From NCBI GenBank assembly GCA_905233845.1, contig CAJOFH010000013.1, forward strand, positions 30,531-94,530: a DNA stretch of 64,000 bases, read 5' to 3'. The notes beneath the pieces were generated by a model. That model was not told the DNA's origin, made no database searches, and was given only the letters and a program-made list of their open reading frames with translations. Position 1 is the first letter of the stretch. Every line of letters begins with the position of its first letter. The DNA is from an uncultured Muribaculaceae bacterium (lineage in GTDB: Bacteria > Bacteroidota > Bacteroidia > Bacteroidales > Muribaculaceae). This document shows positions 3,559-39,178 of this stretch, in pieces. Position numbers and translations under genes: made by a program.

Positions 3559-4290
3559 ATGAACGAAGAATTTACCAAGCAGGTACAAGATTGGCTGAAT
3601 ACTGCCGCCGAGGAGCGAGACAACGCACAAGGCGCGTTGCTCTTGCTCAAACTCACCGGCAACCAAATCATGTACCGAAATCTGATGGCTAATCCGAAAC
3701 GGAACGCCCAGTTTATTGAATACCAGTTGCAGAAACGGCTCAACTTCCGGCTAGCCAAGCTGACCCATGAACAGGTAGAGCAAATGCAGTCGCAAGTCAA
3801 TGTCATCGTAACGAAACGACACCTTGAACCGAAGCAGGAAAACCCTGCCAACGAGTTCCGCAAAGGCAAGCGTGCCGACCACGACACGCTGCCCGATGAG
3901 ATTCAGGCCCTCTATGTCGAGAACCTGGGCATCCTTCATAAGATGCGCGAGCTTCACCTGCGGCTGCGTAATCTCTCCACAGAGGAAAATCCTGCTCGTG
4001 ACTGCGACCGCTATCCGTTCCTCAAAGAACTTATCGAACTTGATAAGCGGCTGCACGCCAATTGGGAGCAGTATGACCACTTCACAGGTGCCGACGGCGA
4101 GGCGGTGATGACTGCCGACGCACGCGAGGAGAGTAAGAAGGCAGTCCGCTGGATTAACCTTGCCAAAGGCAGATATGCCAAAAAGCCAAGCGAGGAACTG
4201 AAAAGTCAGATCCTCGACTTCTATGGCAAGGTCATCAATCCTACGGACAAACTCACCAGTGATTTGAAGAAGCTGGGATTACTTGAATGA
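3559..4290 (+). CDS. phage hypothetical protein
   Basis: ORF 243 aa, tightly packed in operon. Confidence 0.6.
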   Translation: MNEEFTKQVQDWLNTAAEERDNAQGALLLLKLTGNQIMYRNLMANPKRNAQFIEYQLQKRLNFRLAKLTHEQVEQMQSQVNVIVTKRHLEPKQENPANEFRKGKRADHDTLPDEIQALYVENLGILHKMRELHLRLRNLSTEENPARDCDRYPFLKELIELDKRLHANWEQYDHFTGADGEAVMTADAREESKKAVRWINLAKGRYAKKPSEELKSQILDFYGKVINPTDKLTSDLKKLGLLE

Positions 4291-4808
4291 AAAGAACGGC
4301 TGACATATCGGACTTCCTAAAACCCATTCGGGAGAAGCCCTATCAAGCCTACTTGTCAAATGCCTTGCAGGTGGCGGACGTTCTCGACTGGGTGTTGCGA
4401 CAACTCGGCAAGTCCGAGGTGTGGCAGACATCGTTCTCAATCAGCGAGGAGTTCATTCGCCGATTGTACTTCATCGAGAAGTCCGGGCTCGTCACTCGGT
4501 TCAACCTCGTGCTCGACCACAAGGCCACCAACAAGACGCTGAAACTGTGGGCGTTCATCACGCAGGTAATCACCACCACCTACCTTGCCGACAACCACAG
4601 CAAGGTGCTGCTGGTCAAGAGCGAGAAAGGCGAAATGGTCAGTATCATTACGTCACAAAACCTCACACGAGGTAACAGGTGTGAGAGTGCCGTAGTGACA
4701 ACCGACCCTCAAATTTTCGCCACGCTCTTTGCTCAAATCGAAGATTTAATCACCAATCATTCTGTCCCACTCAATGACCTATTCAGAAGCAGAATTGCAG
4801 CAGATTGA
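4287..4808 (+). CDS. PLD-like (HKD) domain protein
   Basis: 'NHSKVLLVKSEKGEMVSIITSQNLTRGNRCESAVV' matches an HKD-type motif. Confidence 0.6.
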   Translation: MKRTADISDFLKPIREKPYQAYLSNALQVADVLDWVLRQLGKSEVWQTSFSISEEFIRRLYFIEKSGLVTRFNLVLDHKATNKTLKLWAFITQVITTTYLADNHSKVLLVKSEKGEMVSIITSQNLTRGNRCESAVVTTDPQIFATLFAQIEDLITNHSVPLNDLFRSRIAAD

Positions 4809-5049
4809 GCAGTTCGCATCAATCTACCTCAAAATATCGGACATGGCGGTGATTCTCGGTGTGCCTGTCGAAGTCTTGCGAGAAGACATCGCCGACAAGT
4901 CAACCGCAGTGAGCCAGCACTACCGACGTGGCAAAGCCGCCTCGAAAGTGAAACTGCTTGCGCAAGAAATGCAGCTGGCGCAGGTTGGCTCACCGCTAGC
5001 CATCGAGAACACACATCGCAATCTGCTCGATATGGAAGACGACGAGTAG
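4774..5049 (+). CDS. small HTH-like phage protein (possible terminase small subunit part)
   Basis: Position upstream of terminase, helical content. Confidence 0.4.
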   Translation: MTYSEAELQQIEQFASIYLKISDMAVILGVPVEVLREDIADKSTAVSQHYRRGKAASKVKLLAQEMQLAQVGSPLAIENTHRNLLDMEDDE

Positions 5050-5051
5050 TT

Positions 5052-5690
5052 ATGGCACAACACAACACCCTCGATGTTTGCCGTGTCGATTTGTTCACGG
5101 CAGAAGATGAATTGAGGCAACGATACCCCGAAGTTATCGTTGCCCGTGTCCTTCGTATTCGTGACGAATACAACTGGTTTCTCGCCAACCCTGACGCTAA
5201 AGACCGTCAGTTTGTCGAGCAAGCGGTCAGCCGTCACGGCATTAGCAAGGTGCTGGCGTATTCCGACCTTGCCATTGTCAAGGCTCTGCTGCCGCACCTC
5301 GCACAAGCGAGCCGTGACTTCCACCGCTATCGCTATAATGAAATGATCCTTGAAACATTCCAGATGGCGAAGAAACGCAAGGACACGAAGACGATGGAGA
5401 AAGCTGCTTCGTCTTATGCCAAGTTCAACAGAGTTGACCTCGAAGACGAGCAAGCAGTGCCGTATGACCTTATCGTGGTGCAGCCGTTCACGGCAACGGC
5501 AGACCCCACAGTTCTCGGCATTAAGCCCATACCGAACATTCAAGAGCGTATAAATGCGCTCATTAAGAAGTATCAAGCCGAGAACATCGACATCGAGGAC
5601 ATCGAGTTCGAGGAACCCGACCTCGAAATGAAATCCCTTATGCCGAACTATGACGATGAAGAAACCGCAGGAGAAGAAAATATACTTTAA
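5052..5690 (+). CDS. phage hypothetical protein, terminase-adjacent
   Basis: ORF 212 aa in operon. Confidence 0.55.
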   Translation: MAQHNTLDVCRVDLFTAEDELRQRYPEVIVARVLRIRDEYNWFLANPDAKDRQFVEQAVSRHGISKVLAYSDLAIVKALLPHLAQASRDFHRYRYNEMILETFQMAKKRKDTKTMEKAASSYAKFNRVDLEDEQAVPYDLIVVQPFTATADPTVLGIKPIPNIQERINALIKKYQAENIDIEDIEFEEPDLEMKSLMPNYDDEETAGEENIL

Positions 5691-7290
5691 TGCGCCGCAA
5701 CGCTTGACGCAGCTTATTGGTGCCAATACCACCGTAATTGTCGCTGGCCGTCGAACAGGCAAGACGGACAGCATCGCCTCGCCATTCGTGTTGCGCAATA
5801 TGCAACGAATGCCTGGCAGCACTGGCGGCATTGTCGTGCCGACCTACAAGCACGGACTGACAAACACCATTCCGGGCTTGCTGGCGGCGTGGAAACGATG
5901 GGGATTTCTCAATGGCGTGCATTATGTCATCGGGCGAAAACCGCCCAAGTCATTCGGCAAGCCCATCATCGAGCCTGCCGAATATGAGCACGTCATTACT
6001 TTCTACAACGGTTCTTGCGCCATCATCATTTCGCAAGACCGACCGGGCAGTTCCAATTCGCTGACACTTTCGTGGCTGCTCATCGACGAGGCAAAGTTCA
6101 TAGACTATGAACGCCTCAAAGATGAAACACTCCCTGCCAACGGCGGCATTAAATCGTATTTCGGACATCATTCGTTCAACCACTCCGTGATGATCCTATC
6201 CGATATGCCGCAGACGCAGAAAGGCTCGTGGTTTCTCCACTACCAAGAAAAGATGGACGTTGACCTTATCGAGACGATTAAGGGCACCGTCTATGAGATT
6301 TGGCACGTCAAGCAACGCATACGCGAGCTTGTCGCTGGTTACAAGTACGTGCCTGATTCTCTCTACGCCTATCTGCGTCGGCTCGACCGCAATCTGAATA
6401 GAATGCGGTCGGTTGCAGTTTACTACAAGGAATATTCCTCGATAGAAAACCTGCAACTGCTGGGCGAGAGCTACATCAAGCAAATGAAACGAGACCTCAC
6501 GCCAAAGACTTTCCAGACCTCAATTCTTTGCCAACGAATAGGAATCGCTAAAGACGGCTTCTATTCGTCGATGCGCGAAGCCCATAAATACAACGCCAGC
6601 GACTTCGATTATCTCGACTCGCTTGGCTATGACTTCAACGAAAGTCAGTTGGACTGCCGAGCCGACAAGGACTTGAATCCTTTCGCGCCCATTTGCATCG
6701 GAATGGACTACAACGCCAACATCAACTGGATTGTTGCCGGTCAGCCGCACGGCAGACGGCTCAATGTCATCAAGTCCTTTTACACCAAGTTTGAGCGCAA
6801 GATACCTGCGCTCATTGATGATTTCTGTCGATACTATGCCCACCACCAATGCAAGGTCGTGGTTTACTACTACGACAGTACCGCTCTCGGCGGCAACTAT
6901 GCCGTCAACGAGCAGGACTTCCATTGGGTGGTGTGCCACGAGTTTGAGCGGCACGGCTGGCAAGTCGAGGACATCAACCTCGGCAATCCCATGCGGCACG
7001 ATGAGAAATACTTGCTCATCAACCAGGGCTTTGCTGGAAAGCAACGCCTGATGCCGATGTTCAACCGCCAAAACAACGATGACCTCATTTTGGCTGTTCA
7101 GACCGCCGGGGTTGTGCGAGGTCGCAACGGCTTCCGCAAGGACAAAGGCGGTGAAAAGTTGGCAGAAACCGAAGAAGATCTGCTCCAACACCGCACCGAC
7201 GGCACGGACGCTTTCGACACCCTATACATAGGCTGTGAAAAGTTTCCGTACCGTGATACCTACGGCATAAATTCGAGCGGTGTTCTCTAA
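5650..7290 (+). CDS. terminase large subunit
   Basis: Walker A 'VAGRRTGKTDS', Walker B 'LLIDEAKFI', C-terminal 'GMDYNANINW' nuclease-type motif. Confidence 0.8.
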   Translation: MTMKKPQEKKIYFNAPQRLTQLIGANTTVIVAGRRTGKTDSIASPFVLRNMQRMPGSTGGIVVPTYKHGLTNTIPGLLAAWKRWGFLNGVHYVIGRKPPKSFGKPIIEPAEYEHVITFYNGSCAIIISQDRPGSSNSLTLSWLLIDEAKFIDYERLKDETLPANGGIKSYFGHHSFNHSVMILSDMPQTQKGSWFLHYQEKMDVDLIETIKGTVYEIWHVKQRIRELVAGYKYVPDSLYAYLRRLDRNLNRMRSVAVYYKEYSSIENLQLLGESYIKQMKRDLTPKTFQTSILCQRIGIAKDGFYSSMREAHKYNASDFDYLDSLGYDFNESQLDCRADKDLNPFAPICIGMDYNANINWIVAGQPHGRRLNVIKSFYTKFERKIPALIDDFCRYYAHHQCKVVVYYYDSTALGGNYAVNEQDFHWVVCHEFERHGWQVEDINLGNPMRHDEKYLLINQGFAGKQRLMPMFNRQNNDDLILAVQTAGVVRGRNGFRKDKGGEKLAETEEDLLQHRTDGTDAFDTLYIGCEKFPYRDTYGINSSGVL

Positions 7291-7429: not shown

Positions 7430-7494
7430 CAGATTGTTTAAGATGTTGTTACGGCAAATATTTGTCGCAACCCATTAACTATTTGTATTTAGTA

Positions 7495-8244
7495 ATGGAA
7501 CAGACACTTAAATTCACACCCCAGCCTTATGCAACAATGATTGCTAAAGGCTTGCTGAATGCAGTACGAACACGACTGCATTTCGAAAAAGCTCAACGCA
7601 TTTTCATCTATGCGGGTGAGCCAGTAACGAACCCTGCAATGCCCATCGAGTGGCAGCAGGAAGTAATCAACCATCAGCTGTTCGGCAACCTTGCCGAAAC
7701 AAAGGACTTGCCCACCAACGAGCTTGTAGGCTTCGTAGATGTGCTGTGTCCTGCCGACCCCAAGTCGAGTGTGTGGACGCTTGACGAAGAACCTGCCTAC
7801 ATCGTAGGCAACGCCCACGCCTTCGACAACCCTCTTGTCTTTCTCGAAAACGAGCATGGCAATCTTCGTGGCATCGAGGACTTCATCCCCTCGCACGTGT
7901 TCAAACCAGTCAATCCGTTCCTGCTTGACTATGACGAAGAACTTGTGCTGCCCGTCAACCGACGCTTGTTCCACATGGCAGCTATGCGCCAAACGCTGAA
8001 GTTCGAACTTACCGGCTTACTTGCAGTCACCGTTCTTGATGACAATGGCGAACTCAAACCGTTCACAAAATTCACTGTCATCAACAACCGTCGTGCTAAA
8101 TCTTTCCTCTTTGAGGGAGAGATTTGTCACGAACTCACTGCCGATGAAACCGACTTGCAACGCTACCCAAGCGTCACTTCTGCAGATGGTACGACAACGA
8201 GAGCGCAGCTTGTGCTCTCGTGCCGTTATGCGCTCACCGACTGA
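7495..8244 (+). CDS. ASCH-domain-like protein
   Basis: Start ATGGAACAG; 'LKFTPQPYATMIAKGL', 'FIYAGEP', 'GFVDVL' pattern resembles ASCH fold. Confidence 0.5.
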   Translation: MEQTLKFTPQPYATMIAKGLLNAVRTRLHFEKAQRIFIYAGEPVTNPAMPIEWQQEVINHQLFGNLAETKDLPTNELVGFVDVLCPADPKSSVWTLDEEPAYIVGNAHAFDNPLVFLENEHGNLRGIEDFIPSHVFKPVNPFLLDYDEELVLPVNRRLFHMAAMRQTLKFELTGLLAVTVLDDNGELKPFTKFTVINNRRAKSFLFEGEICHELTADETDLQRYPSVTSADGTTTRAQLVLSCRYALTD

Positions 8245-8291
8245 TTTTTCCTACAAAATCACTCCGTTTAGGAAAAATTGTCGTACCTTTG
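8244..8291 (+). promoter_or_regulatory. 10-bp inverted repeat (ATTTTTCCTA/TAGGAAAAAT) followed by TACCTTTG -7 box
   Basis: IR arms 8244-8253/8269-8278; box 8284-8291; no clear -33 TTTG. Confidence 0.5.
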
Positions 8292-8295
8292 CAAT

Positions 8296-8499
8296 GCCGA
8301 AAACATCGTTTTTGACATTACATAGGTTGTTCTAAAGAACATTATGCTTCTCGATGATTTGAAAACGTAGGAACTTTTCATTGATGAACGACGAAAGCAT
8401 AGTGGTTTCTCTCGCATATTGCGTGAGCCACTTTATGCACTCGTTCATCTGGTTATCCTACGACCATCAAATCTAGTGCTGTGGTTCACGCATTTTTTT
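8296..8499 (+). ncRNA. candidate structured RNA with ~118-nt compound stem and terminator
   Basis: Nested pairs GATTTGA/TCAAATC, CGTAGGA/TCCTACG, GATGAACGA/TCGTTCATC, GCAT-AGTGG/CCACT-ATGC, CGCA/TGCG; terminator 8477-8499. Confidence 0.6.
8477..8499 (+). terminator. rho-independent terminator (TGC-GTG hairpin + T7)
   Basis: TGC t GTG gtt CAC GCA TTTTTTT. Confidence 0.45.
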
Positions 8500-8525
8500 A
8501 GCTCCGTTAAGTTTTTTCTATTTTA

Positions 8526-8562
8526 GTGTGCAAGATTTTTGCTCACCTGTGATATACCTTTG
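8526..8562 (+). promoter_or_regulatory. promoter B: GTGTGCA-N7-TGCTCAC operator plus TACCTTTG
   Basis: Near-identical to promoter A; second inverted repeat CTCACC/GGTGAG spans the -7 box. Confidence 0.6.
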
Positions 8563-8568
8563 CAGCGG

Positions 8569-8595
8569 TGAGAATAATATTCATTCTCATTTTTT
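8569..8595 (+). terminator. 5'-UTR terminator/attenuator-like hairpin before the CoiA-like gene
   Basis: TGAGAAT-AATATTC-ATTCTCA followed by six Ts, between promoter B and ATG 8626. Confidence 0.5.
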
Positions 8596-8625
8596 CGTTA
8601 ACATATTATATAAATCCTTATTTAT

Positions 8626-9603
8626 ATGGCTGATAATATCCTCAATCCGTGGGCTATAGATAGCAACGGGAAAATAATAAGCATTGAACATGCTCGCAAA
8701 GGAGAAGTGTATCATTGCCCTGTTTGCAAGGAACTGCTTTCCTATTGCAAGAAAGGCGATGGCCCACGCGCTCGCATTGACCATTTCAAGCACCAATCCA
8801 ATACAAATTGCCATGGTGGCGGTGAATCTGAAATCCACAGGATGGCAAAGGAGAAAGTTTATGAGATACTGCGGCACTTTTTAGACAAACACTATGAGTT
8901 GCCCATTACATGGACTTGTCCTGATTGTGGAATTGACATGAAGGCAAACTTGCTCAGACGAGCTAAAGATGTGCGCATGGAACACGACCTCGATGCGGCG
9001 CGTCCTGACATTGACTTGCTCGATGACAAGGGTAACACAATCATTGCCATTGAGATTGTATTTACCCACGATGTCGAAGCAAGCACACTTCGTTTTTATG
9101 ACAACAACAATATTGTGCTTGTGCGAATCGTCGTGAGATCAGCTGAAGACTGCAACGACATGATGCACAAACTACAATTCCCAGACAGTTGCAATCTTTG
9201 CTTTAACGAAGATTGTAAGCGAGGCGAAAAGATGCAGGTGTATAGGAAGATAATTCCAGTAGTTGACAACAATAGAATTGTTGGTCTTGCTGTTGCTTTA
9301 GATAACCCATTCGAGGAAGAAATCATTAAAGGTTTACCATTCAACGAACAAGACAAGCGTACTGCAATAGCCATAGCCAAAGAGAAATGGCCAAAACATC
9401 AACTCTATTTTAGCGAAGTCCCGGCTTATCCTTATGCGTTGTTAAAGCCCATTCAAACAATGAGTTTTCAATCTAGGATGAGGGCAACACCAAGTCCCTA
9501 CCATACCGGTCTTGAAGAAGTTATGCGCCAGCGGCAAGTAAAAGCTATCCGTAGAAACTATGCAATAAGAGCAAAAAAAACAGGTGGCAAACGTCGTCGT
9601 TAG
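8626..9603 (+). CDS. competence protein CoiA-like nuclease
   Basis: N-terminal 'YHCPVCKELL...DHFKH', 'RPDIDLLDDKGNTIIAIEIVFTHDVE' nuclease-like core. Confidence 0.7.
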   Translation: MADNILNPWAIDSNGKIISIEHARKGEVYHCPVCKELLSYCKKGDGPRARIDHFKHQSNTNCHGGGESEIHRMAKEKVYEILRHFLDKHYELPITWTCPDCGIDMKANLLRRAKDVRMEHDLDAARPDIDLLDDKGNTIIAIEIVFTHDVEASTLRFYDNNNIVLVRIVVRSAEDCNDMMHKLQFPDSCNLCFNEDCKRGEKMQVYRKIIPVVDNNRIVGLAVALDNPFEEEIIKGLPFNEQDKRTAIAIAKEKWPKHQLYFSEVPAYPYALLKPIQTMSFQSRMRATPSPYHTGLEEVMRQRQVKAIRRNYAIRAKKTGGKRRR

Positions 9604-9686
9604 ACTTTTTTTACTACCATTGCATTTCGTAGTAAGAGTATTTCATACTCTTATCCAGCAAAAGACCATAGTTATTAACGATATAC

Positions 9687-9750
9687 AAACTCCTTTGCAA
9701 TTTTATGAGCTTTGGTCGGCTCGCTGGGAATTGCATTGGAGTTTGTTTTT
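9687..9750. other. stem-loop, 7+6+4 bp, followed by T-rich tract
   Basis: AAACTCC-GCAATT-GAGC / GCTC-AATTGC-GGAGTTT. Confidence 0.4.
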
Positions 9751-9914
9751 GTTAAAGCAATGAAAACTAACTTTAGTAAAAAGTACAACGAGAAATCAGC
9801 AATAACGACAAGAAAAAAAGCAAAAAGGGTGACTTTGGATATGTGTACCAAAATGGGAACGAATTCTTTATTGCGCTGAACTTCCAAATCAGATTCAGGT
9901 AAGACATAGATTTT

Positions 9915-10292
9915 ATGAAAGACCAACCCAGTAAACAGCAGCTCATTTTGCTTGTAAACTCGCTGTGCAAGTTACAAGACAAAATCTTGTCGGTTAAAGG
10001 AATGCCGAAGCACATTCAGCAACCCATCGCTGACAAGGTTGAGCCATTGAAAGCTCCATTGTTTTTCCTCTGGGAAAAACTGGGCTACGGAAGTCCTACC
10101 GAACTTTCGCCGCAAGGCATCAATGGCTACTGGATGGCATCTTTCCAAACATCGCCACCTGATTTCCTCTCGGAGTGCATCCAGCAGCTCCGAACATTGG
10201 AAATCCCCATCAACGAATATGACGGCGGCATTGATCTGCAAAAATCACTCATCAATTTCTATTCGGACCTTCAAGAAATGTATTGCGATTAA
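9915..10292 (+). CDS. hypothetical protein
   Basis: ORF 125 aa. Confidence 0.5.
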   Translation: MKDQPSKQQLILLVNSLCKLQDKILSVKGMPKHIQQPIADKVEPLKAPLFFLWEKLGYGSPTELSPQGINGYWMASFQTSPPDFLSECIQQLRTLEIPINEYDGGIDLQKSLINFYSDLQEMYCD

Positions 10293-15632: not shown

Positions 15633-15878
15633 ATGACAGCTTCATTCAACACATCGTTTTTCAGCACTCCTGCCACAGCTGCAAGCGGAGTTAGTAAAAA
15701 AGGTTTCCGCTCTACCGCATACAATAATTATGTGGTTGATGTGGTGGACTTCGACAATGAAATTCACACTTTCGAGGTCGAGGCACGCACGGCAGACGAG
15801 GCAAGCGAGCAAGCCGCAGAGTTGGCAATGTCGCAAGGCACACAAGTTAGTTACTGCAATGTCTATTGCGAGCAATAA
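15633..15878 (+). CDS. small hypothetical protein
   Basis: Start ATGACAGCTTCATTC within ORF 15600..15878. Confidence 0.5.
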
Positions 15879-15924
15879 CAAGCGAGTTAATAACACTATT
15901 CATAAATTTCTAAATTTTACTATT

Positions 15925-16536
15925 ATGGCAAATTTGATTTTAGCAAGCAAGCGAGAGGTTAAGAGCGGTGCCCAAATGTGGCACGTGTACCAGCACGAGA
16001 ATGGCGCAAAGGTCGCCGAGAGTGAGTACTACTTTTCCCTGCCTATCAAGGCGTTAAAGTACGCATTTTTGTTGCGCAAGCGCACCGGTGCGATAATCCC
16101 GAAAGCCATTTACACGAAGCTAATGGCTGACGTGAGCGCAAGCAAGGCACAAGCCGAGCCGAGCGCAGAGAGCGAGAGCACACCCCAAGCCGAGCAAGCG
16201 AGCGAGCCGAGCGCACTGGGCAAGGCTTATGAGCAGATGAAAGCCAAGCACCCCGACAGCATTTTGCTGTTCCGCTGTGGCGATTTTTACGAAGCCTATG
16301 GAGATGACGCAAGGACAGCGAGCGAAGTTTTGGGCATCACCCTCACACGCACAAGCCGCAAGGACATTACCGCACAAATGGCAGGTTTCCCACATCACGC
16401 CCTCGATACGTACCTGCCCAAGTTGGTGCGTGCAGGTAAGCGAGTAGCCATTTGCGATGAGCCTACCAAAGTAGCCGAAAAGGTTGAGCCAGCCAAGAAA
16501 GCCACACGCAAAAGCGCAAAGAAAGAGAGCAAGTAA
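15925..16536 (+). CDS. MutS domain I-like (mismatch-recognition N-domain) stand-alone protein
   Basis: '[40 protein letters not shown]...[28 protein letters not shown]'. Confidence 0.75.
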
Positions 16537-25075: not shown

Positions 25076-25103
25076 TATGTCTTTTCGTTTACCGAACATT
25101 GAG

Positions 25104-25141
25104 TGTAGTTTTGCGGTGTAATTCGCAAAACTACATTTTTT
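25104..25141 (+). terminator. perfect 12-bp terminator directly abutting the next start codon
   Basis: TGTAGTTTTGCG-gtgtaatt-CGCAAAACTACA-TTTTTT then ATG. Confidence 0.75.
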
Positions 25142-27724: not shown

Positions 27725-28312
27725 ATGAAAAAGAAAGTCATGAACATCAGACCGCAGGAAGTCACCCAGGGCGGCGAGCGGTCAGTCCAGTACAAGGGCA
27801 GCGACGGCAAGATGCACGGCATCGCGCCAGCTGGCAATGGTGGCAGCACCGCCCAATCGCAAGACGTGCATCTTAAAGATGCCTTCGTCATCTACCGAAA
27901 TAATATGGATCTTTTTGGTCAGGGCGAGCGGACGGTCATCTACAAGATGAACGACTGGGTAAGAACGGAAGTCGATGTCGACACGCTCATGCAAGCACTG
28001 GAGCAGAACGCATCGCAACCAGTCCTTATTCAATTAGAGTCAATGGAAGAAGGCTTCAATGTGGTGGCAAGAGTAATCAGTCTTGCATTGAGCCAAAACG
28101 AGGAAGATGAATCTTATTCGCCTTCGGTGATTTGTCTCCAATGGTGGGCTTACGAGGGTAATGTCGTGGATATTTTCAATGTTGTCCTCGAAAAAAATGA
28201 GCAAGGCTCCACCATTGAGTTTATCCCACAGGCCTTTGCAATAGGTAACGATGATTCAGGAAATGGTCAAATCGCTAACGGTCCAGAAATTGGAGGCAAT
28301 GGAAAGTTATAA
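27725..28312 (+). CDS. modular phage protein, paralog 2
   Basis: As above. Confidence 0.6.
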   Translation: MKKKVMNIRPQEVTQGGERSVQYKGSDGKMHGIAPAGNGGSTAQSQDVHLKDAFVIYRNNMDLFGQGERTVIYKMNDWVRTEVDVDTLMQALEQNASQPVLIQLESMEEGFNVVARVISLALSQNEEDESYSPSVICLQWWAYEGNVVDIFNVVLEKNEQGSTIEFIPQAFAIGNDDSGNGQIANGPEIGGNGKL

Positions 28313-28916
28313 GAACAGAGTAGTCATCCTCGGCACGGCGCACGGCTGCAACGTGCCGGGAAAATGCTCGCCCGACAAGAAGTTCCGCGAGTATCGATTC
28401 AGCCGTGATGTTATCAAGCAGCTGAAGCCCCAACTCGAAGCGCTCGGCTTGCTCGTCTTTGTCGATATGCCAGGCGACGAGGTGCCACGCCCGGGCAACA
28501 CCGAACTTTCGCTCCGTTGCCGTTACGTCAATGGAATATGCTCAAAGTTCGGCACGCAGAACTGCGTCTATGTGAGTATTCACGTCAATGCCGCAGGTTC
28601 TGACGGGCAGTGGCACACAGCACGAGGCTTCGCAGTCTATGTGGCACGCCAATGCTCAGAGGCGAGCAAGCGGCTCGCAAAATCCTTTTGCGAAACCGCT
28701 ATCGCCATGGGATTGCGCGGTAACCGCTCCATCCCCAAAGAGCATTACTGGCAAGCCAATTTCTACGTTGTAAAGAACACCGCTTGCCCTGCGGTGCTGA
28801 CCGAGAACTTGTTCCAAGACAACCACGACGACGTGGATTTTCTCGCATCACCAGAGGGCAAGGCGAAGATTGTCGAACTCCACCGCACCTGCATCGCTAA
28901 ACATTTTGGACTATGA
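28299..28916 (+). CDS. N-acetylmuramoyl-L-alanine amidase (amidase_3 type)
   Basis: 'VVILGTAHGCNVPG', 'VYVSIHVNAAGSDGQWHTARGF', 'AVLTENLFQDN'. Confidence 0.8.
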   Translation: MESYKNRVVILGTAHGCNVPGKCSPDKKFREYRFSRDVIKQLKPQLEALGLLVFVDMPGDEVPRPGNTELSLRCRYVNGICSKFGTQNCVYVSIHVNAAGSDGQWHTARGFAVYVARQCSEASKRLAKSFCETAIAMGLRGNRSIPKEHYWQANFYVVKNTACPAVLTENLFQDNHDDVDFLASPEGKAKIVELHRTCIAKHFGL

Positions 28917-29464
28917 AAGCACTCTCACTCGCTGCAACCACGGCAATGCTTGCTGTGGTATTGCTCGCGTCGTGCCACTCCAAAAAGGAAGTCACGGCTA
29001 CCACGAAAGAGCAGTACGACATCGAGACGGCTGGCTCAACTCTCACTGCAACCGACGAGCGGTTGCAGTGGTTGAGCCGCTTATCGCTCGACATCGACAG
29101 CTTCGAGGTGGTGATACCCACACGCCATTTTGCTGAAATCGGCAAGATGGCTGGTGACACGGCGATGGATCTGCCTGAACAGTTTGCCCTCTCCGCAAGC
29201 CAACCTCGCCCTGGCTCGGTTGTCCTGCGAGGCAAACACGCACGATTGGGCAAGGCCGACATCGTTCAGCGCAACGCTGCGCGTTGCACTTCACAGGTTG
29301 ACACACTGTCGGCTCACCGCTCAATCGACAAGGCAGACCATTACGCTCGTGACAACGTGGGTATATACAAGCCACCCGATGTGACGTGGTGGCCGTGGCT
29401 CCTGCTCACAGGTCTGCTCGTGGGTTCCATTATCATCATTTGGCTGAAAGAAAGAGGTAAATAG
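28913..29464 (+). CDS. lysis-associated lipoprotein (spanin-like)
   Basis: Lipobox 'LLASC', C-terminal TM, downstream of amidase. Confidence 0.5.
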   Translation: MKALSLAATTAMLAVVLLASCHSKKEVTATTKEQYDIETAGSTLTATDERLQWLSRLSLDIDSFEVVIPTRHFAEIGKMAGDTAMDLPEQFALSASQPRPGSVVLRGKHARLGKADIVQRNAARCTSQVDTLSAHRSIDKADHYARDNVGIYKPPDVTWWPWLLLTGLLVGSIIIIWLKERGK

Positions 29465-29503
29465 TTTTTTCATGATGATTTTTGAGTTTAATATGTTCAT
29501 TCA

Positions 29504-30445
29504 AGTAAAGGCTTTGCCGTGAGGCACGGCCTTTACTGCTTCAAGGTGTAAACACATAGCGACCGACCCCACACACCCGCCCTTGACACAATGCAAGCAT
29601 TGCCAAATTGCCCACCCCAGCCCCCGATGTGGGCGGCGTTCCGGACTGGCTCGGCATGGCGGCGATGAGCTTTACGTTGCGGACACCGGCTAACGGCTCA
29701 CAACATCAATCGGGTATCGAGGCGGCAAGCCGTTTCGACACCCGATTTCGCCACCGCCAAACCCACGCACTCGGCTCTTATCGGTCGCTACCATTGCGCA
29801 CCGCGTCTCATTCCGACATCGAAAGTGCCACGCCTACGGCTTATATGCCTCTCTATTGACGGCGTTACGGAAGCGCATCAAGTCTGCCTCGTTACATCGG
29901 GTATCGGTGCGCCAAGTCGCACTGACACCCGATGATTTTCCACTATGTCAGACACAATGCTCGACAGGTCGTTCCGTAACGCCTATGGTTCGGCAAGGGC
30001 ACACTCAATGCTCCAATCGTCTTGTGCTCCATTACCGCTCCCTGCAAGCCCAGTGCTCTCGCTGCGCTCGGGGATTGTCGGTGGGGTGAGCCTATCCGAA
30101 GTCCTTCACTATGCTCGTCGCACGCAATGCTTCTCACCGCCCAATGAACACTCGCCCACATCGCCTAATCACAAAATCAAGGCGCAAGCGAGTTGAGCCA
30201 CGATTTTGATTTAACGATTTTCGGCAATCCGAAAATCTCGAACAGCGGAAGCCAAAGTGTGCCGCCGAAACCAAAACTGCGTTTCGGTTCATCGGCTCAC
30301 ATTGGCGCTCTGACCGCACATTCAGCTCGGTCGAAAAGGCAATTTGCGAAAGCGAGGAAGAGGGTGGTCGGGGGGTCTTTGCAGACAGCAACGGGGCGCA
30401 GCCCCGTACCCCAGAAAAGGCTGTTACACAGCCTTTTAATTTTTT
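29504..30445 (+). ncRNA. candidate large structured non-coding RNA (~940 nt)
   Basis: No convincing ORF; many strong hairpins and long-range helices; ends in terminator 30415-30445. Confidence 0.7.
30415..30445 (+). terminator. rho-independent terminator
   Basis: AAAAGGCTGT-tac-ACAGCCTTTT-aa-TTTTTT. Confidence 0.85.
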
Positions 30446-30626
30446 CAATCCTTAACAAATCGTGTGTTTCCGTAAATCGAGGCTGAAAATACGCAGAAAT
30501 ATCGACTGATTTTCAGTCATTTACACACTTTGTTGTTTTGCACTTTCTTGCACAATGTTGCACATCGGCAAAGTTCCTGCAAAGGATTGAAAATTTCGCT
30601 CGCCAATAGGCGAGGTCGGCAATGTC

Positions 30627-30669
30627 TTTTATAGGTCGGAACGACAAAATTACTTTTGTGCCTATAAAA
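30627..30669 (+). promoter_or_regulatory. tape-measure promoter within 9-bp inverted repeat
   Basis: TTTT-N20-TACTTTTG; TTTTATAGG / CCTATAAAA arms flank it. Confidence 0.6.
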
Positions 30670-30685
30670 TCCATAATCTACTACA

Positions 30686-33600
30686 ATGAGCAACATAAAC
30701 AGTCAAGCAACGGTCAATCTGACCGTGAACGGTCAGCAACCCCTCCAAGTCCTGCAAATGCTGAAGCAGCGTGCAATGGAGTTGGAGAATGCCATCGCTA
30801 AAGCGGCTATGGCAGGGAACAAAGTGGAGCTGCGCAAACTCCGCAGGGAGTTGAGCGACACCAAGCGGCAAATGCGTGAGATTGAAACCTCAACCCAGCA
30901 GGTCGAGCGAGTAATGCTGCGCCTCGACCGAGCCACGCCCAAAGAGTTGAACAAGACCTTACAGACCTTGAACCGACAACTCGAATACATGGAACGTGGC
31001 TCTGCCGCATGGAACTCCCACGTGGCTAAAATCCAGCGTGTGAAAGCCGAACTCGCAAAGGTCAATGCCGAACTCCGCACGCAGGAGTCGTTCTGGACCC
31101 GCTTCAATCGTAAACTCAACGATTGGCAGACATCGCTCATGGGCATCGCAGCTTTGGTCACCGGCCTTGTCATGGCAGGGCGCAAGGCGGTGAACTCCTA
31201 CGCCGAGATGGAAGAAGAAATCGCCAACACCATCAAGTACACCGGCATGGCTCGTGACGAGGTGGTGGCGATGAATGATTCATTCAAGGCAATGGACACC
31301 CGAACAGGGCGAGACAAGCTCAACGAACTGGCGCAGGAAGCAGGACGCTTGGGCAAGAACACCAGGGAAAGTGTTCAAGGCTATGTCGAGGCAGCCGACA
31401 TCATCAACGTGGCGTTGGTGGACTTGGGCGAGGGAGCGACCCAAGTCATCGCCAAGCTCACCAACATCTTCGGTGTCGAGCAGATACTCGGTACCAAAGA
31501 CGCAATGCTCGCTGTCGGCTCGACGGTGAATGTCCTCTCGCAGAACTGTACCGCGGCGAAACCCTACCTTGTGCAGTTCGCCCAACGCATGGCTGGTGTG
31601 GGCGCACAGGCGAGAATGACAATCCCCGAAATACTCGCCTTCGCGGCCACCCTTGACGCTAACGGTCAAAAGGTAGAGATGTCGGCTTCGGCGATGTCGC
31701 GCCTTATTATGATGTTGTTTCAAAAGCCGCAGGAGATAGCAAAGACTGTCGGGCTTGACGTGGAGAAGTTCACCGAGACGCTGAACCGCAGCACCAACGA
31801 GGGCGTGCTGATGTTCCTCGGCAAATTGCAGGAGATCGGTGAGGCTGACGCACTTGCCGCACTCTCGCCCTTGTTCAAGGACTTGGGCATGGACGGCATC
31901 CGCATGGCCCAGGTCCTCGCCACGCTCGCCACCCACCTCGACATGGTGAAGTGGGAGCAGAAAGAGGCGAACAAGGCATTTACCGAAGCCACGTCTGCGA
32001 CCCGCGAATACAACATCTTCAACAACACTGCCCAAGCAGGTATCGACAAGGCACGCAAGCACATCCACGAGCTCGCCATTGAGTTAGGAGAGAAACTCCT
32101 GCCTCTATACAAGCATATAATGACGAGCGGAAGCGCCATGCTGCGATTCCTGAATGTGCTGGTGAATTTCTTTGTCCAGTACAAGGGATTGATCGTGACC
32201 TTCACGGCATCATGGATTGCCTACAAGGTAGCGGTCAACGCCAGCAACATCGCTTTCAAGGCTCATTACTACTGGCTCGTCATCACCGAGGGAGCGCAGA
32301 AGTTGCTCGGAACGGCAACGCTGGCTCTCAAAATCGCCTTCTACGCTCTCACGGGGCAGGTCGAGAAGGCAAAGGCAGCTTACACCGCTTTCCACCTTCT
32401 CACCAAGACCACGCCGTGGGGCATCATCCTCGCGGCTGTCACCGCATTGGGAGTGGGCATTTATAATCTCTGCACACGCACCGACGAGCTGACGAAGAAG
32501 ACCAACGAGGCCGTCAAGGCAGCCAAAGGCTACAATGCCGAAGCCGTGAAAGAGCAGCACGAACTGGACGTGCTTTTCGGCAAGCTCAAAGGTGCCGAGA
32601 AAGGCACGAAAGAGTATGAGGACGCGAAACGCGCCATCATCAACCAGTACGGCAAGTACCTCTCCGGTCTCATCAACGAGAAAGGCGAAATCCTCAATCT
32701 CGAAGCCGCCTACAACCGCTTGACTTTGGCGGTGAGGCGGTCAGCCCAAGAGCGAGGCATCGCCGCGGCACGTGAGCAGATTGACCAGGAATATTACAAG
32801 TCGCTCGCTTCGGGCTTGACAGACCTGCAAGCCTCGCTCGAAAGTGCCGGAGCGACCACAAGGGACGCAGCCGAGATTGTCGCAGCCGTCAGTTCAGCGA
32901 TGGCGGCTGGCAAGCCCATACCGCAGAACTACATCAATAAAATCAACGGCTACTCCAAAGGTATTGAGTGGCGGTTGCTGCCCGACTGGGTGGGCGGCAG
33001 CCAGCACCCCTTCTGGGGCGGCGACAGCCGAAAGCCGGCTCCCATCGTCAACCGTATGTATAATGCATACGAGACCCACCGCAAAGGGCTTGCGGCTCTT
33101 GACGCTATGGAAGACGGCGTTTCCCCATTGAGGCACATAGACAACTATTACCTCAAAGGCACCATCGGGCAGCTGGAGAAGATAGTGAAGAACAATCAGG
33201 CGGGCAACGCCATCGTGTTCATCGAGGGCACGCAGCAGGGCGAGTACAAGGAAGTCTCGGTTGCCGAAGCCAAGCAGCTCCTCACACAGTACCGTGAGGA
33301 ACTTGCCTACCGTGGCGCCAGCAAGACCGATGCCACTGGCTTGAACCTCGACACCACTGGCGGCACCGGCGGTGCGGCTGGCGGCGTGGGCGGCGCATCG
33401 CCCAAGACCACCAAAGGCGGCGGTCGTGGCGGCTCGCAGAAGTCCGAGGACAAGTTCAAGGCGGAGAAAGACTGGCGAGAGTACCAGGAAGCCTTGAACC
33501 GCATCGCCTATGCAACAGGGGAAAAGAACTATGAGGAATACACCAACAGAATGTTGGAAATCGAGGAAGCGTTCTACCGCAAGCAACTGGCTCACGCAGA

Positions 33601-35488
33601 TCTCACGGCTAACGAACGCATCTCGATAGAGGCACAGCTGTATGAAGTCCTGCGCAAGCAGACCGAGACCGCCAACAAGAAGACCATCGAGGATGAGAAT
33701 CGGCTGTATGCGCTCCGAAAGTCGGAGACGCAGCAGCAGTACATCGACGGCTTGTTGTCGACCGAGGCATACAACGAGCAGATGCAGCGCATCGAGCTTG
33801 AACACCTCAAAGCCATCAAGGACATCTACAGTGACCAGGCGTTCGCGCCCATCACCGAGTGGGAGGAAACCAAGCGGCAAGCAGCCGAGATGATGCAGAC
33901 GCAGTTCAACGGCAACGTCGACCTGCTCAACAGACCCGTCATTGACGCTCACGAGCTGACAAAGGCGGGCTGGAAAGGCAATCCGCAAAACGAGGGAGAG
34001 GCCACCGCGACGGTGTACTCATCCCAGTACGGCATCAAGGACTCCACAGGACAAGTCCGTGAAATCCTTGTCACGCCCATCTTACCCGACGGCTCAGTCC
34101 TTACAGAGAAAGAACTGAAAGATTACGTCTACAAGACGCTGCAGGGTGCAGAGGACATTCTCGAAGCCGATGACAAAGGATTGGTCATCGCCGTGGACGT
34201 AAGCGCAGACGGCAAGGCTGGCGAGAATCTGCACACCATGCAGGAAGCCTACAATTCGTCAAAGCCGAATGTAGATGAAAAGGCATGGGCTAACTTCCTC
34301 GCTGCCGAAGAAGCCTATCAGAACAAACTGATTGCCGAGCAGCAGAAGAAGCAGCGTGAGGCAGAGGAAGCCGAGCAGAAGCACCAGGCTGAACTCAAAC
34401 GCATCAAGGACGAGTATTTCGGCAACAACGCAGCCGAAAACAAGGCTCTCTACGACGAAGCCATCTCGAACCTTGATAAAGTGTACCAAGCCGAGGTAGC
34501 GGCAGCTGGCGACAATGCGAAGGAGAAACTTCGCATTGACGAGGCTTATGAGAAAGCCAAGCTCGCCTTGAAGAAGAAGTACAATCAGATGGGCGGCGAG
34601 GAAGACCGCAACGCCATGCAGAAGTGGAACCAGGATCTGCTCGACTGGCTCAATGGCGACGGCGGACAGGCCGTCACCAAGAGCGTCGAAACATTGACAT
34701 CGGGAATGTCAAGTATCTTCTCGCAGCTCTCCTCACTTGTGCAAGCCGAGATGGAGATTGAAACCGCTGCCGTGGAGAAACGCTACGAGCGTGAGGTGTC
34801 TATGGCAGAGGGCAACAAATACAAGACCAAGCAGCTTGAAAAGCAGAAGCAGAAAGAGATTGCAAAGGTCAAGGACGAGGCAAATAGGAAACTGTTCGCC
34901 ATGCAGGTAATCCAAGCCGTGGCGCAGACGGCAACGGCTGCGCTCAACGCCTACTCATCGGCTGCCGCTATTCCTGTGGTGGGCTACATACTCGCGCCTA
35001 TCGCCGCAGCGATGGCTATTGCCGCTGGCGCAATACAGATTGCGACCATCAAGAAGCAACAGCAAGCCAGCACCGCGCAGGGCTATGCCCGGGGCGGTTT
35101 CACCAAGCAGGGCGCAGTCGATGAGGTAGCTGGTGTCGTTCACGCAGGAGAGTGGGTGGCAAGTCAGAAGCTCCTTGCCTCACCGGTGGCTCGCCCACTC
35201 ATCGAGGCCCTGGACTATGCGCAGCGGACAAACACAATCGGCAGTTTGAGACAGTCCGATGTGAGCCGCACGATTACTGCTCCCGCAGTATTGGCGCAGT
35301 CCCAAGCCCCGACAGTCATTGTTCAAGAGAACAAAACTCTGCGTGAAACGCTCGCTCGCTTGAATGAAAGGCTAAATGAGCCTTTCGTCACCGTGAACAC
35401 CGTGACTGGTGATCTCGGTATCAAGCAAGCGCAAGATGATTACCAGCGATTGATGAACAATAAATCCCCGAAGAATAAACGCAAGTAA
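30686..35488 (+). CDS. phage tail tape measure protein
   Basis: 1600 aa, coiled coils, 'MEEEIANTIKYTGMARDEVVAMNDSFKAMDTRTGRDKLNELAQEAGRLG' typical TMP core. Confidence 0.9.
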   Translation: MSNINSQATVNLTVNGQQPLQVLQMLKQRAMELENAIAKAAMAGNKVELRKLRRELSDTKRQMREIETSTQQVERVMLRLDRATPKELNKTLQTLNRQLEYMERGSAAWNSHVAKIQRVKAELAKVNAELRTQESFWTRFNRKLNDWQTSLMGIAALVTGLVMAGRKAVNSYAEMEEEIANTIKYTGMARDEVVAMNDSFKAMDTRTGRDKLNELAQEAGRLGKNTRESVQGYVEAADIINVALVDLGEGATQVIAKLTNIFGVEQILGTKDAMLAVGSTVNVLSQNCTAAKPYLVQFAQRMAGVGAQARMTIPEILAFAATLDANGQKVEMSASAMSRLIMMLFQKPQEIAKTVGLDVEKFTETLNRSTNEGVLMFLGKLQEIGEADALAALSPLFKDLGMDGIRMAQVLATLATHLDMVKWEQKEANKAFTEATSATREYNIFNNTAQAGIDKARKHIHELAIELGEKLLPLYKHIMTSGSAMLRFLNVLVNFFVQYKGLIVTFTASWIAYKVAVNASNIAFKAHYYWLVITEGAQKLLGTATLALKIAFYALTGQVEKAKAAYTAFHLLTKTTPWGIILAAVTALGVGIYNLCTRTDELTKKTNEAVKAAKGYNAEAVKEQHELDVLFGKLKGAEKGTKEYEDAKRAIINQYGKYLSGLINEKGEILNLEAAYNRLTLAVRRSAQERGIAAAREQIDQEYYKSLASGLTDLQASLESAGATTRDAAEIVAAVSSAMAAGKPIPQNYINKINGYSKGIEWRLLPDWVGGSQHPFWGGDSRKPAPIVNRMYNAYETHRKGLAALDAMEDGVSPLRHIDNYYLKGTIGQLEKIVKNNQAGNAIVFIEGTQQGEYKEVSVAEAKQLLTQYREELAYRGASKTDATGLNLDTTGGTGGAAGGVGGASPKTTKGGGRGGSQKSEDKFKAEKDWREYQEALNRIAYATGEKNYEEYTNRMLEIEEAFYRKQLAHADLTANERISIEAQLYEVLRKQTETANKKTIEDENRLYALRKSETQQQYIDGLLSTEAYNEQMQRIELEHLKAIKDIYSDQAFAPITEWEETKRQAAEMMQTQFNGNVDLLNRPVIDAHELTKAGWKGNPQNEGEATATVYSSQYGIKDSTGQVREILVTPILPDGSVLTEKELKDYVYKTLQGAEDILEADDKGLVIAVDVSADGKAGENLHTMQEAYNSSKPNVDEKAWANFLAAEEAYQNKLIAEQQKKQREAEEAEQKHQAELKRIKDEYFGNNAAENKALYDEAISNLDKVYQAEVAAAGDNAKEKLRIDEAYEKAKLALKKKYNQMGGEEDRNAMQKWNQDLLDWLNGDGGQAVTKSVETLTSGMSSIFSQLSSLVQAEMEIETAAVEKRYEREVSMAEGNKYKTKQLEKQKQKEIAKVKDEANRKLFAMQVIQAVAQTATAALNAYSSAAAIPVVGYILAPIAAAMAIAAGAIQIATIKKQQQASTAQGYARGGFTKQGAVDEVAGVVHAGEWVASQKLLASPVARPLIEALDYAQRTNTIGSLRQSDVSRTITAPAVLAQSQAPTVIVQENKTLRETLARLNERLNEPFVTVNTVTGDLGIKQAQDDYQRLMNNKSPKNKRK

Positions 35489-37724: not shown

Positions 37725-38960
37725 CTATTTCTTGCCATATAGCACCCAGTCAAGCACTTTTCTATTGGCCTCATCGACCTTGCTTTGGTCAAAGTCAATG
37801 TAGATGTCGGTCACTGTGTTGTTGCCGTGTCCGAGAGCATGGGCGATAGTGTCCTTCGGAATGTCAAGAGAAGCGGCGATTGTAGCCCACGAGTGACGCG
37901 CCCAATACGTTGATATTTGGGGAAATAGTGGCTCGTATTCTTTCTTGCCTCCACGCCCTACACGCTTCACTGGACCAATCTTTTTCAAAGCTCGGTTCAT
38001 TCGTTTTGTGTAGTCCTTATAGTCCTTGTATCGGTCAAGAATGTTAAGCAGCCACTTCTCGCCACGGTAGCGATTGATGATTTCCAACGCCTCTGGCTCA
38101 ACCTTTATACTATAAAGGCGGTTAGTCTTTGCTCTGTGAAACTCCACCCGGCCATCCACAATAGCCGTGAGGTTGCAAAGGTCAATCGCATTGATACCCA
38201 GCAGCATAAACATCAGCTTGAACATATCAAGATACTGTTGGGCGTGCTTCTCACAAGGATAGTTGAAAAACTTACGAAGTTCCTCTACTTTGAGGTTTCG
38301 CTTGGCAGTCGCAACATTGCGGATAGAGAAGCGACGGAACGGGTAGAACGTAGTGATTTCATCATCAAGAGCCTCGTTGAAAACGGCTCTGATGTTGCGC
38401 AAATGAATGTTGCGAGCGTTCTTTGAGGGTGATTGAGGGATGAGGTGAGAATCAAACTTCGTCAGCCATTCCTTTGTAATATCCTCGAAAGCAAGCGTTT
38501 CGAGTTTCTTACCTGCGAACTCAACCATACGCTTATATGTGTCCATATAAATGCGTTTGGTACTCGGCTTTTTGCTGTCAGCAAAAGCGAGGTAGCGTCT
38601 GACAAACAAGTTCTTACGCCGTTCCGCTTGTTCTTTAGCCTCGACCTTGCTGGGATTGAGTTTGCGCTCAATCTCTAGTTTAATGTCGTTGGCAGTCATA
38701 CTTTGCAGACTGCCAGCGTCAGCGAGGATAAAGATAGTACGCTCCACCTGCTGCATAATCCCCATCAAATACAGGTTTAGCACCTTTTGCTCTGGGTGGT
38801 TCACCACCATAGACTGCCCGCAGTCCCATTGCGTGGGCAGCAGTCGTGCATCAGTTGAGATGTACGAAGTCTTGTCACGGTGACCGATAGCCACCTTCAA
38901 GACCGACGGAGACCCAGGTTTCGTTCTCCGTGTGTCAAGGAAAAACTTAGTTCTTGCCAT
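37725..38960 (-). CDS. tyrosine recombinase/phage integrase
   Basis: 'YWARHSWATIAASLDIPKDTIAHALGHGNNTVTDIYIDFD'; start MARTKFFLD. Confidence 0.9.
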   Translation of the reverse strand: MARTKFFLDTRRTKPGSPSVLKVAIGHRDKTSYISTDARLLPTQWDCGQSMVVNHPEQKVLNLYLMGIMQQVERTIFILADAGSLQSMTANDIKLEIERKLNPSKVEAKEQAERRKNLFVRRYLAFADSKKPSTKRIYMDTYKRMVEFAGKKLETLAFEDITKEWLTKFDSHLIPQSPSKNARNIHLRNIRAVFNEALDDEITTFYPFRRFSIRNVATAKRNLKVEELRKFFNYPCEKHAQQYLDMFKLMFMLLGINAIDLCNLTAIVDGRVEFHRAKTNRLYSIKVEPEALEIINRYRGEKWLLNILDRYKDYKDYTKRMNRALKKIGPVKRVGRGGKKEYEPLFPQISTYWARHSWATIAASLDIPKDTIAHALGHGNNTVTDIYIDFDQSKVDEANRKVLDWVLYGKK

Positions 38961-39008
38961 ATAAAACCTCCCGCTACTCTCCGCACAACTTTCGTGTCTC
39001 TCAAATCC

Positions 39009-39040
39009 ACCTTGTACGTACAAGGTAATGTACAAGGTAA
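39009..39040. repeat. palindrome plus direct repeat upstream of integrase
   Basis: ACCTTGTAC|GTACAAGGTAAT|GTACAAGGTAA. Confidence 0.8.
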
Positions 39041-39178
39041 ATGGGGCGATATGTTGAGAAATCGTGTAAAATTGTGCAAATTTGGCGTTTTTTTTAATGG
39101 CATTTACCGCCTAAAACGGCAAAAAAGTAAGGTCGGAAATAGGCTTAATCGCCTATTTACCAACCTTTTCCTTTTCAG

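Follow-up and report, generated by a model that had tools for sequence, protein, structure and literature searches.

This locus raises the question of what occupies 1.2 kbp without recognizable genes between the lysis genes and the tape measure gene of a Muribaculaceae prophage and, if it is an RNA, from which strand and which promoter it is made. Few large structured RNAs are known from phages, and what they do is poorly understood. The window, which is the whole stretch of DNA analyzed, is a 64-kb piece of the draft genome of a gut or rumen bacterium; it carries a prophage, and within the named collection its nearest relatives are rumen Muribaculaceae MAGs.

Left of the gap, the prophage codes for an endolysin (amidase; 28251–28916, plus strand; PF01520, E = 1.1e-20; phrog_435, lysis) and for the last product of the lysis cassette (28913–29464, plus strand), a small exported protein that is spanin-like by position only and has zero matches in Pfam and PHROG; homologs of its gene stand ahead of the RNA element described below in related phages. 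The tail tape measure gene (30686–35488, plus strand; PF10145 and several tape-measure PHROGs) lies to the right and outside the element, followed by the prophage integrase (37725–39035, minus strand) and a tRNA-Pro gene at 39178. Between the lysis and tape measure genes, positions 29465–30685 hold no ORF longer than 104 aa on either strand and none that is credible, as the initial annotation had claimed for this gap. A protein-coding reading was rejected on the homologs, in which no ORF is conserved, indels are numerous, and the ORF breaks differ from one to the next.

Spurious long ORFs (up to 340 aa, with the start VLAGTPQDCAYGVS...) do occur over the element or its flank in relatives, at 4287–5309 in L044 (340 aa), at 7444–8067 and 8080–8712 in L043, and at 3945–4376 and 4684–5211 in L069. 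They were dismissed as genes because the sequence that they overlap is conserved and structured and because each homolog breaks them in a different way; gene annotation will probably list them as hypothetical proteins.

We confirm that the gap holds a conserved, structured, and previously uncatalogued RNA element. The reading of it that we favor, at about even probability, is a new structured-RNA family of Muribaculaceae phages and islands, which would be made as an RNA at the 3' end of the late lysis operon, would act in trans, and would not be a leader of the tape measure gene.

Covariation and the RIGHT module

The gap is matched by BLASTN in 29 of 101 related genomes. The homolog pool comprises seven viral contigs with related tape measure genes and 25 tape measure loci from named genomes, and iterated nhmmer gave 132 hits at 64 loci. 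Among 21 near-full-length sequences, 44 of the 85 pairs predicted by RNAalifold have compensatory changes on both sides, and the alifold energy is –327 kcal/mol, compared with –168 ± 10 for column-shuffled alignments (z = –16, with sparse columns dropped). Covariation among homologs was the check that the initial annotation had proposed, and compensatory changes in the homolog alignments exceed both the shuffles and the slid controls. The single-sequence folding energy of the gap is low (z = –6.2 for the plus strand, –6.6 for the minus strand), but folding energy is not diagnostic because the adjacent coding stretch scores as strongly (z = –8.8 against shuffles); MFE z-scores were dropped as evidence of structured RNA, and homology and covariation decide.

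The family-wide part of the element is the RIGHT module (30247–30445, plus strand), a unit of ~200 nt defined by a covariance model (R1) and alignments. It is made up of a bulged hairpin domain (30250–30310), a region closed by ACCGC...GYGGT, a GGGG...CCCC junction enclosing two hairpins (one of them at 30391–30407), and a terminator hairpin. In a 43-sequence alignment, 31 of the 53 pairs are changed on both sides, 85% of cells are paired versus 39–44% with the partners slid, and covariation scores 0.30 versus 0.16 when shuffled. The R1-extended alignment (42 sequences, 39 distinct), which takes in more distant members found with the model, has compensatory two-sided changes in 42 of the 53 pairs, but it was fitted to the R1 model and its counts lean towards structure. 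In both alignments every covariation measure scored (covariation score, cells paired, and pairs and cells with both sides changed) lies above 500 of 500 shuffles and all of the slides.

The module ends in a predicted intrinsic terminator (30415–30445, plus strand), AAAAGGCTGT-TAC-ACAGCCTTTT followed by TTTTTT, in which all eight aligned pairs have both-side changes; a U run is usually present 3' of it among relatives. The helices at 30265–30287 and 30391–30407 and the terminator stem at 30415–30437, which had been picked out from the single sequence, all have strong covariation support. Read on the plus strand, RIGHT helices 4, 5, 7, 8, and 9 contain 101 G.U cells versus 27 A.C cells, and this excess, together with the plus-oriented terminator, is supporting evidence that favors RIGHT as a plus-strand RNA. 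RIGHT modules also occur in tandem, with up to four copies (at 8460, 8957, 9327, and 9816 in L118), which suggests dosage of a trans-acting product.

The LEFT module and its strand

The LEFT module (29604–30165) is a long-range rod of ~560 nt closed by 29625–29635 and 30153–30163. It has two related hairpins, the first of which (29708–29747) has the form ATCGGGTATCGAGGCGGC..GCCGTTTCGACACCCGAT, and the second of which (29895–29934) is enclosed by a 12-bp helix (29861–29872 with 29972–29983; the whole spans 29861–29983) with 9 of its 12 pairs covarying in the phage subfamily. Between the modules, MID (30166–30240) contains two optional hairpins (30172–30208 and 30216–30237) and is missing from some relatives, such as L039 and L040, where LEFT and RIGHT directly adjoin. 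LEFT is partially duplicated in some relatives, and insertions of ~70–76 nt in the LEFT modules of L094 and L106 resemble added hairpins, as judged by eye. All of the hairpins listed in the initial annotation are present, with the one formed by GGTGAG/CTCACC placed one base off, its true position being 30085–30090/30133–30138; the alignment gives no support to this pairing, or to that at 29589–29602, as conserved helices.

Phage copies at the tape measure gene and island or chromosomal copies with the same LEFT version are 94–97% identical in LEFT, versus only 56–75% in their RIGHT modules; this comparison concerns the version common to those copies, and the LEFT module of the window is a more diverged version. 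Mean conservation between genomes is 0.92 for LEFT and 0.93 for RNase P RNA, and 0.74 for RIGHT. One rumen genus has many members in which LEFT lies just upstream of RIGHT, and RIGHT can occur without a recognizable LEFT module. The identity values imply that LEFT moves as a cassette or is homogenized separately. On these comparisons the locus is a composite of two modules with different evolutionary histories.

As a long imperfect inverted repeat that spreads between phage and island as a cassette, and that has no plus-strand G.U excess, LEFT would also suit an explanation at the level of DNA, with no RNA involved: selection on long quasi-palindromes that serve as a cruciform or as a site of packaging, recombination, or replication, or template-switch mutation that keeps the two arms of inverted repeats matched. 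Long inverted repeats can be corrected mutationally (quasi-palindrome correction). We consider this improbable. The best-aligned helices of RIGHT have a strand-specific G.U excess, the terminator has its T run on one strand, and the loops of LEFT have a strong purine bias on one strand, which would not be expected from the symmetry of DNA.

The initial annotation had taken the whole element as plus-strand RNA, a proposal that holds for RIGHT, with its G.U excess and terminator, and is doubtful for LEFT, in which A.C exceeds G.U and the loops are antisense-like. In plus-strand terms, distinct LEFT helix variants number 52 A.C versus 20 G.U in the union of pairs, and 20 A.C versus 6 G.U in pairs common to both strand folds, an earlier G.U versus A.C test on such common pairs having been set aside as uninformative for strand. 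The minus-strand loops of LEFT have a composition of A.39, G.38, C.12, and U.12, and the plus-strand loops are C/U-rich and G-poor. In a control using RNase P RNAs of the same and related genomes, folded as LEFT was, the sense loops have A.43, G.24, C.16, and U.18, and the antisense loops A.26, G.08, C.33, and U.33. The alifold energy of LEFT is lower on the minus strand in all three groupings, and minus-strand terminator-like hairpins are found left of LEFT in L050, L063, and L064 and, by eye, in L046. We thus lean towards minus as the sense strand of LEFT.

These features bear on a reading with two RNAs from opposite strands, in which LEFT would be a rod of ~560 nt made from the minus strand and RIGHT an RNA of ~200 nt made from the plus strand; LEFT would be antisense to the late genes and run in the same direction as the integrase, the island primase genes, and the tRNAs. 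We hold this as a tentative possibility. The minus-strand loops of LEFT resemble sense RNase P and its plus-strand loops the antisense, the alifold energies and the terminator-like hairpins point the same way, and the G.U excess falls on the minus strand for LEFT and on the plus strand for RIGHT. However, a scan for a minus-strand promoter of LEFT found none, and the abutting of LEFT and RIGHT in L039 and L040 leaves no space for divergent promoters; divergent promoters within the MID palindrome were rejected as MID is absent from these two relatives. For LEFT and RIGHT alike, shuffle z-scores fail to tell the strands apart, and so do not favor minus, and a G>A mutation bias in unpaired LEFT (35 of 105 sites, versus 35 of 166 for C>U) may account for part of the A.C excess. 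A mobile RNA system in two parts, in which a family-wide plus-strand phage RNA of ~200 nt is joined by an opposite-strand rod of ~560 nt spreading among phages, islands, and tRNA clusters as a near-identical cassette, is likewise tentative, and somewhat doubtful; if true, it would be a new giant class of mobile-element RNA, comparable but unrelated to GOLLD and ROOL.

Boundaries, promoters, and transcription

The initial annotation began the element at a hairpin with a GNRA loop (29504–29537, plus strand). This hairpin is conserved and strongly covarying among related phages (it is kept with stem changes in L037, L044, L039, L033, and L105, and with GNRA loops in several phages), but it is a separate element outside the conserved core. 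It is terminator-like in relatives, with a T run behind it in some (L033 and L105), and is also found where LEFT is not homologous; most plausibly it marks where the lysis operon ends. As aligned, the conserved core begins at ~29604 and runs to 30445, and its two modules of differing history take the place of the one continuous 940-nt unit from 29504 that had been described. The promoter box proposed upstream of the first hairpin (TATGTTCA) is not conserved among relatives. A dedicated promoter for the element was sought on both strands and none was found, and a scan for Bacteroidetes promoters (TTTG-N-TAnnTTTG) beside the element gave no consistent site.

Candidate late promoters are found further away on both sides. 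A motif scan places a late-promoter-like site, GTCTTTT-N20-TAGTTTTG, ahead of the lysis-gene operon (25079–25113, plus strand), and a predicted tape measure promoter, GTCTTTTA-N19-TACTTTTG, lies 3' of the terminator (30624–30658, plus strand). The latter comes from motif counts in 38 distinct regions upstream of tape measure genes, in which TAnnTTTG is present in 27 (2.8 expected) and GTCTTTTA in 24, mostly 27 nt 5' of TAnnTTTG. The strict late-promoter pattern has three matches in the 64 kb (16846, 25079, and 30624), all on the plus strand and in the phage late region. In the general form of this pattern, GTCTTTT(A)-N19/20-TAnnTTTG, GTCTTTTA stands in place of the host –33 TTTG; the pattern suggests a phage-encoded late transcription factor.

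With the predicted tape measure promoter downstream of the terminator, the element would not be a leader of the tape measure gene, and since the island genes to its right point towards it, it cannot lead those either. The element is like attenuator and riboswitch leaders in being a structured RNA with a terminator 5' of a same-strand gene; unlike them, it has a downstream gene with its own predicted post-terminator promoter, and the right-hand island gene is convergent. A cis-regulatory leader of the tape measure gene (riboswitch or attenuator) was rejected, as a promoter site is predicted between the terminator and the start codon in most phages.

In the trans-acting late RNA that we favor, late transcription would start ahead of the lysis operon at the 25079 site, read through the lysis genes and the element, and end at 30415–30445, with the tape measure gene starting anew at 30624 from a putative late promoter of its own. 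Of this transcript, the structured 3' part would persist as, or be processed into, a stable late-phase RNA, which may act in trans through a host or phage factor that it binds. We count in favor of this reading the covariation, the RIGHT terminator, the plus-strand G.U excess, the separate tape measure promoter, the convergent island genes, the tandem copies, and the hairpin-like LEFT insertions in L094 and L106. Counted against it are that LEFT does not look like plus-strand RNA, that the element has no identified promoter of its own, and that the 29504 hairpin may stop read-through from the lysis operon.

The same terminator invites a reading in cis, as an elaborate 3' UTR, terminator, or insulator that serves the lysis operon and the plus-strand island genes to its left by halting transcription or shielding the 3' end of the mRNA. 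The terminator at the end of RIGHT is conserved and, in phages, is followed by a new promoter, only ~110 nt separate the lysis gene from RIGHT in L184, and plus-strand genes end just upstream in several islands. Yet a terminator needs ~30 nt, and not 200–840 nt of covarying structure, and tandem copies are hard to explain in cis; we judge the cis role rather unlikely. The element is like terminator-ended phage small RNAs and structured 3' UTRs in following a lysis cassette and ending in an intrinsic terminator, but its conserved structure is much larger and is common to non-phage islands.

Distribution and comparison with known RNAs

The R1 model has one match in the genome of the window. It matches 44 of 199 sampled Muribaculaceae genomes, in 15 of 30 genera. 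Of the other genomes sampled, 2 of 247 in the order and none of 299 in the phylum have a match. The main context, that of nearly all copies examined in other genera, is between the lysis genes and the tape measure gene, on the tape measure strand. A second recurrent context, seen in genus g76 too, is in islands with PriCT_2, DUF3987, and HTH_17 genes pointing towards the element, and a third is in the vicinity of tRNA clusters, near copies in L118, L113, L116, L120, L127, and L043. BLASTN of the window's gap against INPHARED gave no match, nor did BLASTN of the L043 element against INPHARED and the PLSDB plasmids. A literature search on Muribaculaceae prophage ncRNAs found no paper; the main text of a study of structured RNAs in the human microbiome does not name Muribaculaceae (PMC8040213), and its candidates may overlap with the element.

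No Rfam model, including those of GOLLD, ROOL, OLE, and HEARO, matches the window or L118 at the gathering threshold or at E ≤ 10, and none matches other relatives at the gathering threshold. Because no Rfam family matches, the element is regarded as a new family; of the two options in the initial annotation, a member of a giant RNA class or a new one, the second stands. Membership in one of the known classes is extremely improbable given the unmatched covariance models, although the ecology is similar, with copies in prophages and islands and near tRNA clusters (e.g. the tRNA run on the element's contig in L118), and although both the element and GOLLD have conserved 3' and variable 5' parts (PMC12286853). 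The likeness in the conserved 3' part is a loose one: unlike GOLLD, the element is nearly confined to one Bacteroidales family, and its 3' module is ~200 nt, can lack a recognizable LEFT, and can be tandem. ROOL occurs in phages and prophages, often near tRNA islands, and one well-studied sequence is from the rumen (PMC12286853); the element differs from it in architecture, being a rod plus a terminator-ended module. Prophage context with nearby tRNA clusters, the ecology typical of GOLLD and ROOL, is nevertheless found for the element.

With the element comes a family that is missing from Rfam 15, together with a usable covariance model and ~40 diverse aligned sequences. The family has a fixed phage slot (lysis genes, RNA, tape measure gene) and a parallel presence in islands and tRNA clusters, and it opens the role of such RNAs to testing in a host family that is abundant in the guts of rodents and ruminants.

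Some further features of the neighborhoods are of note. Islands with PriCT_2/BT4734-like and DUF3987 genes, and with HTH_17 in several, are present in L043, L044, L053, L119, L123, L127, L178, and L179; such islands bearing the RNA module could be phage satellites that share the RNA with helper phages. In L118, ~17 tRNA genes (4454–5968, minus strand) lie ~1.7 kb from the element with four RIGHT copies (7664–10058, plus strand), which adjoins a tRNA gene and the chromosomal RNase Y and PSP1 genes; the arrangement is reminiscent of the tRNA islands found with GOLLD and ROOL. The window also has a phage gene at 15730–16536 whose product carries MutS domain I at its C terminus (PF01624, E = 9e-28); in L038, L044, and L056, homologs of this gene stand ahead of the RNA element.
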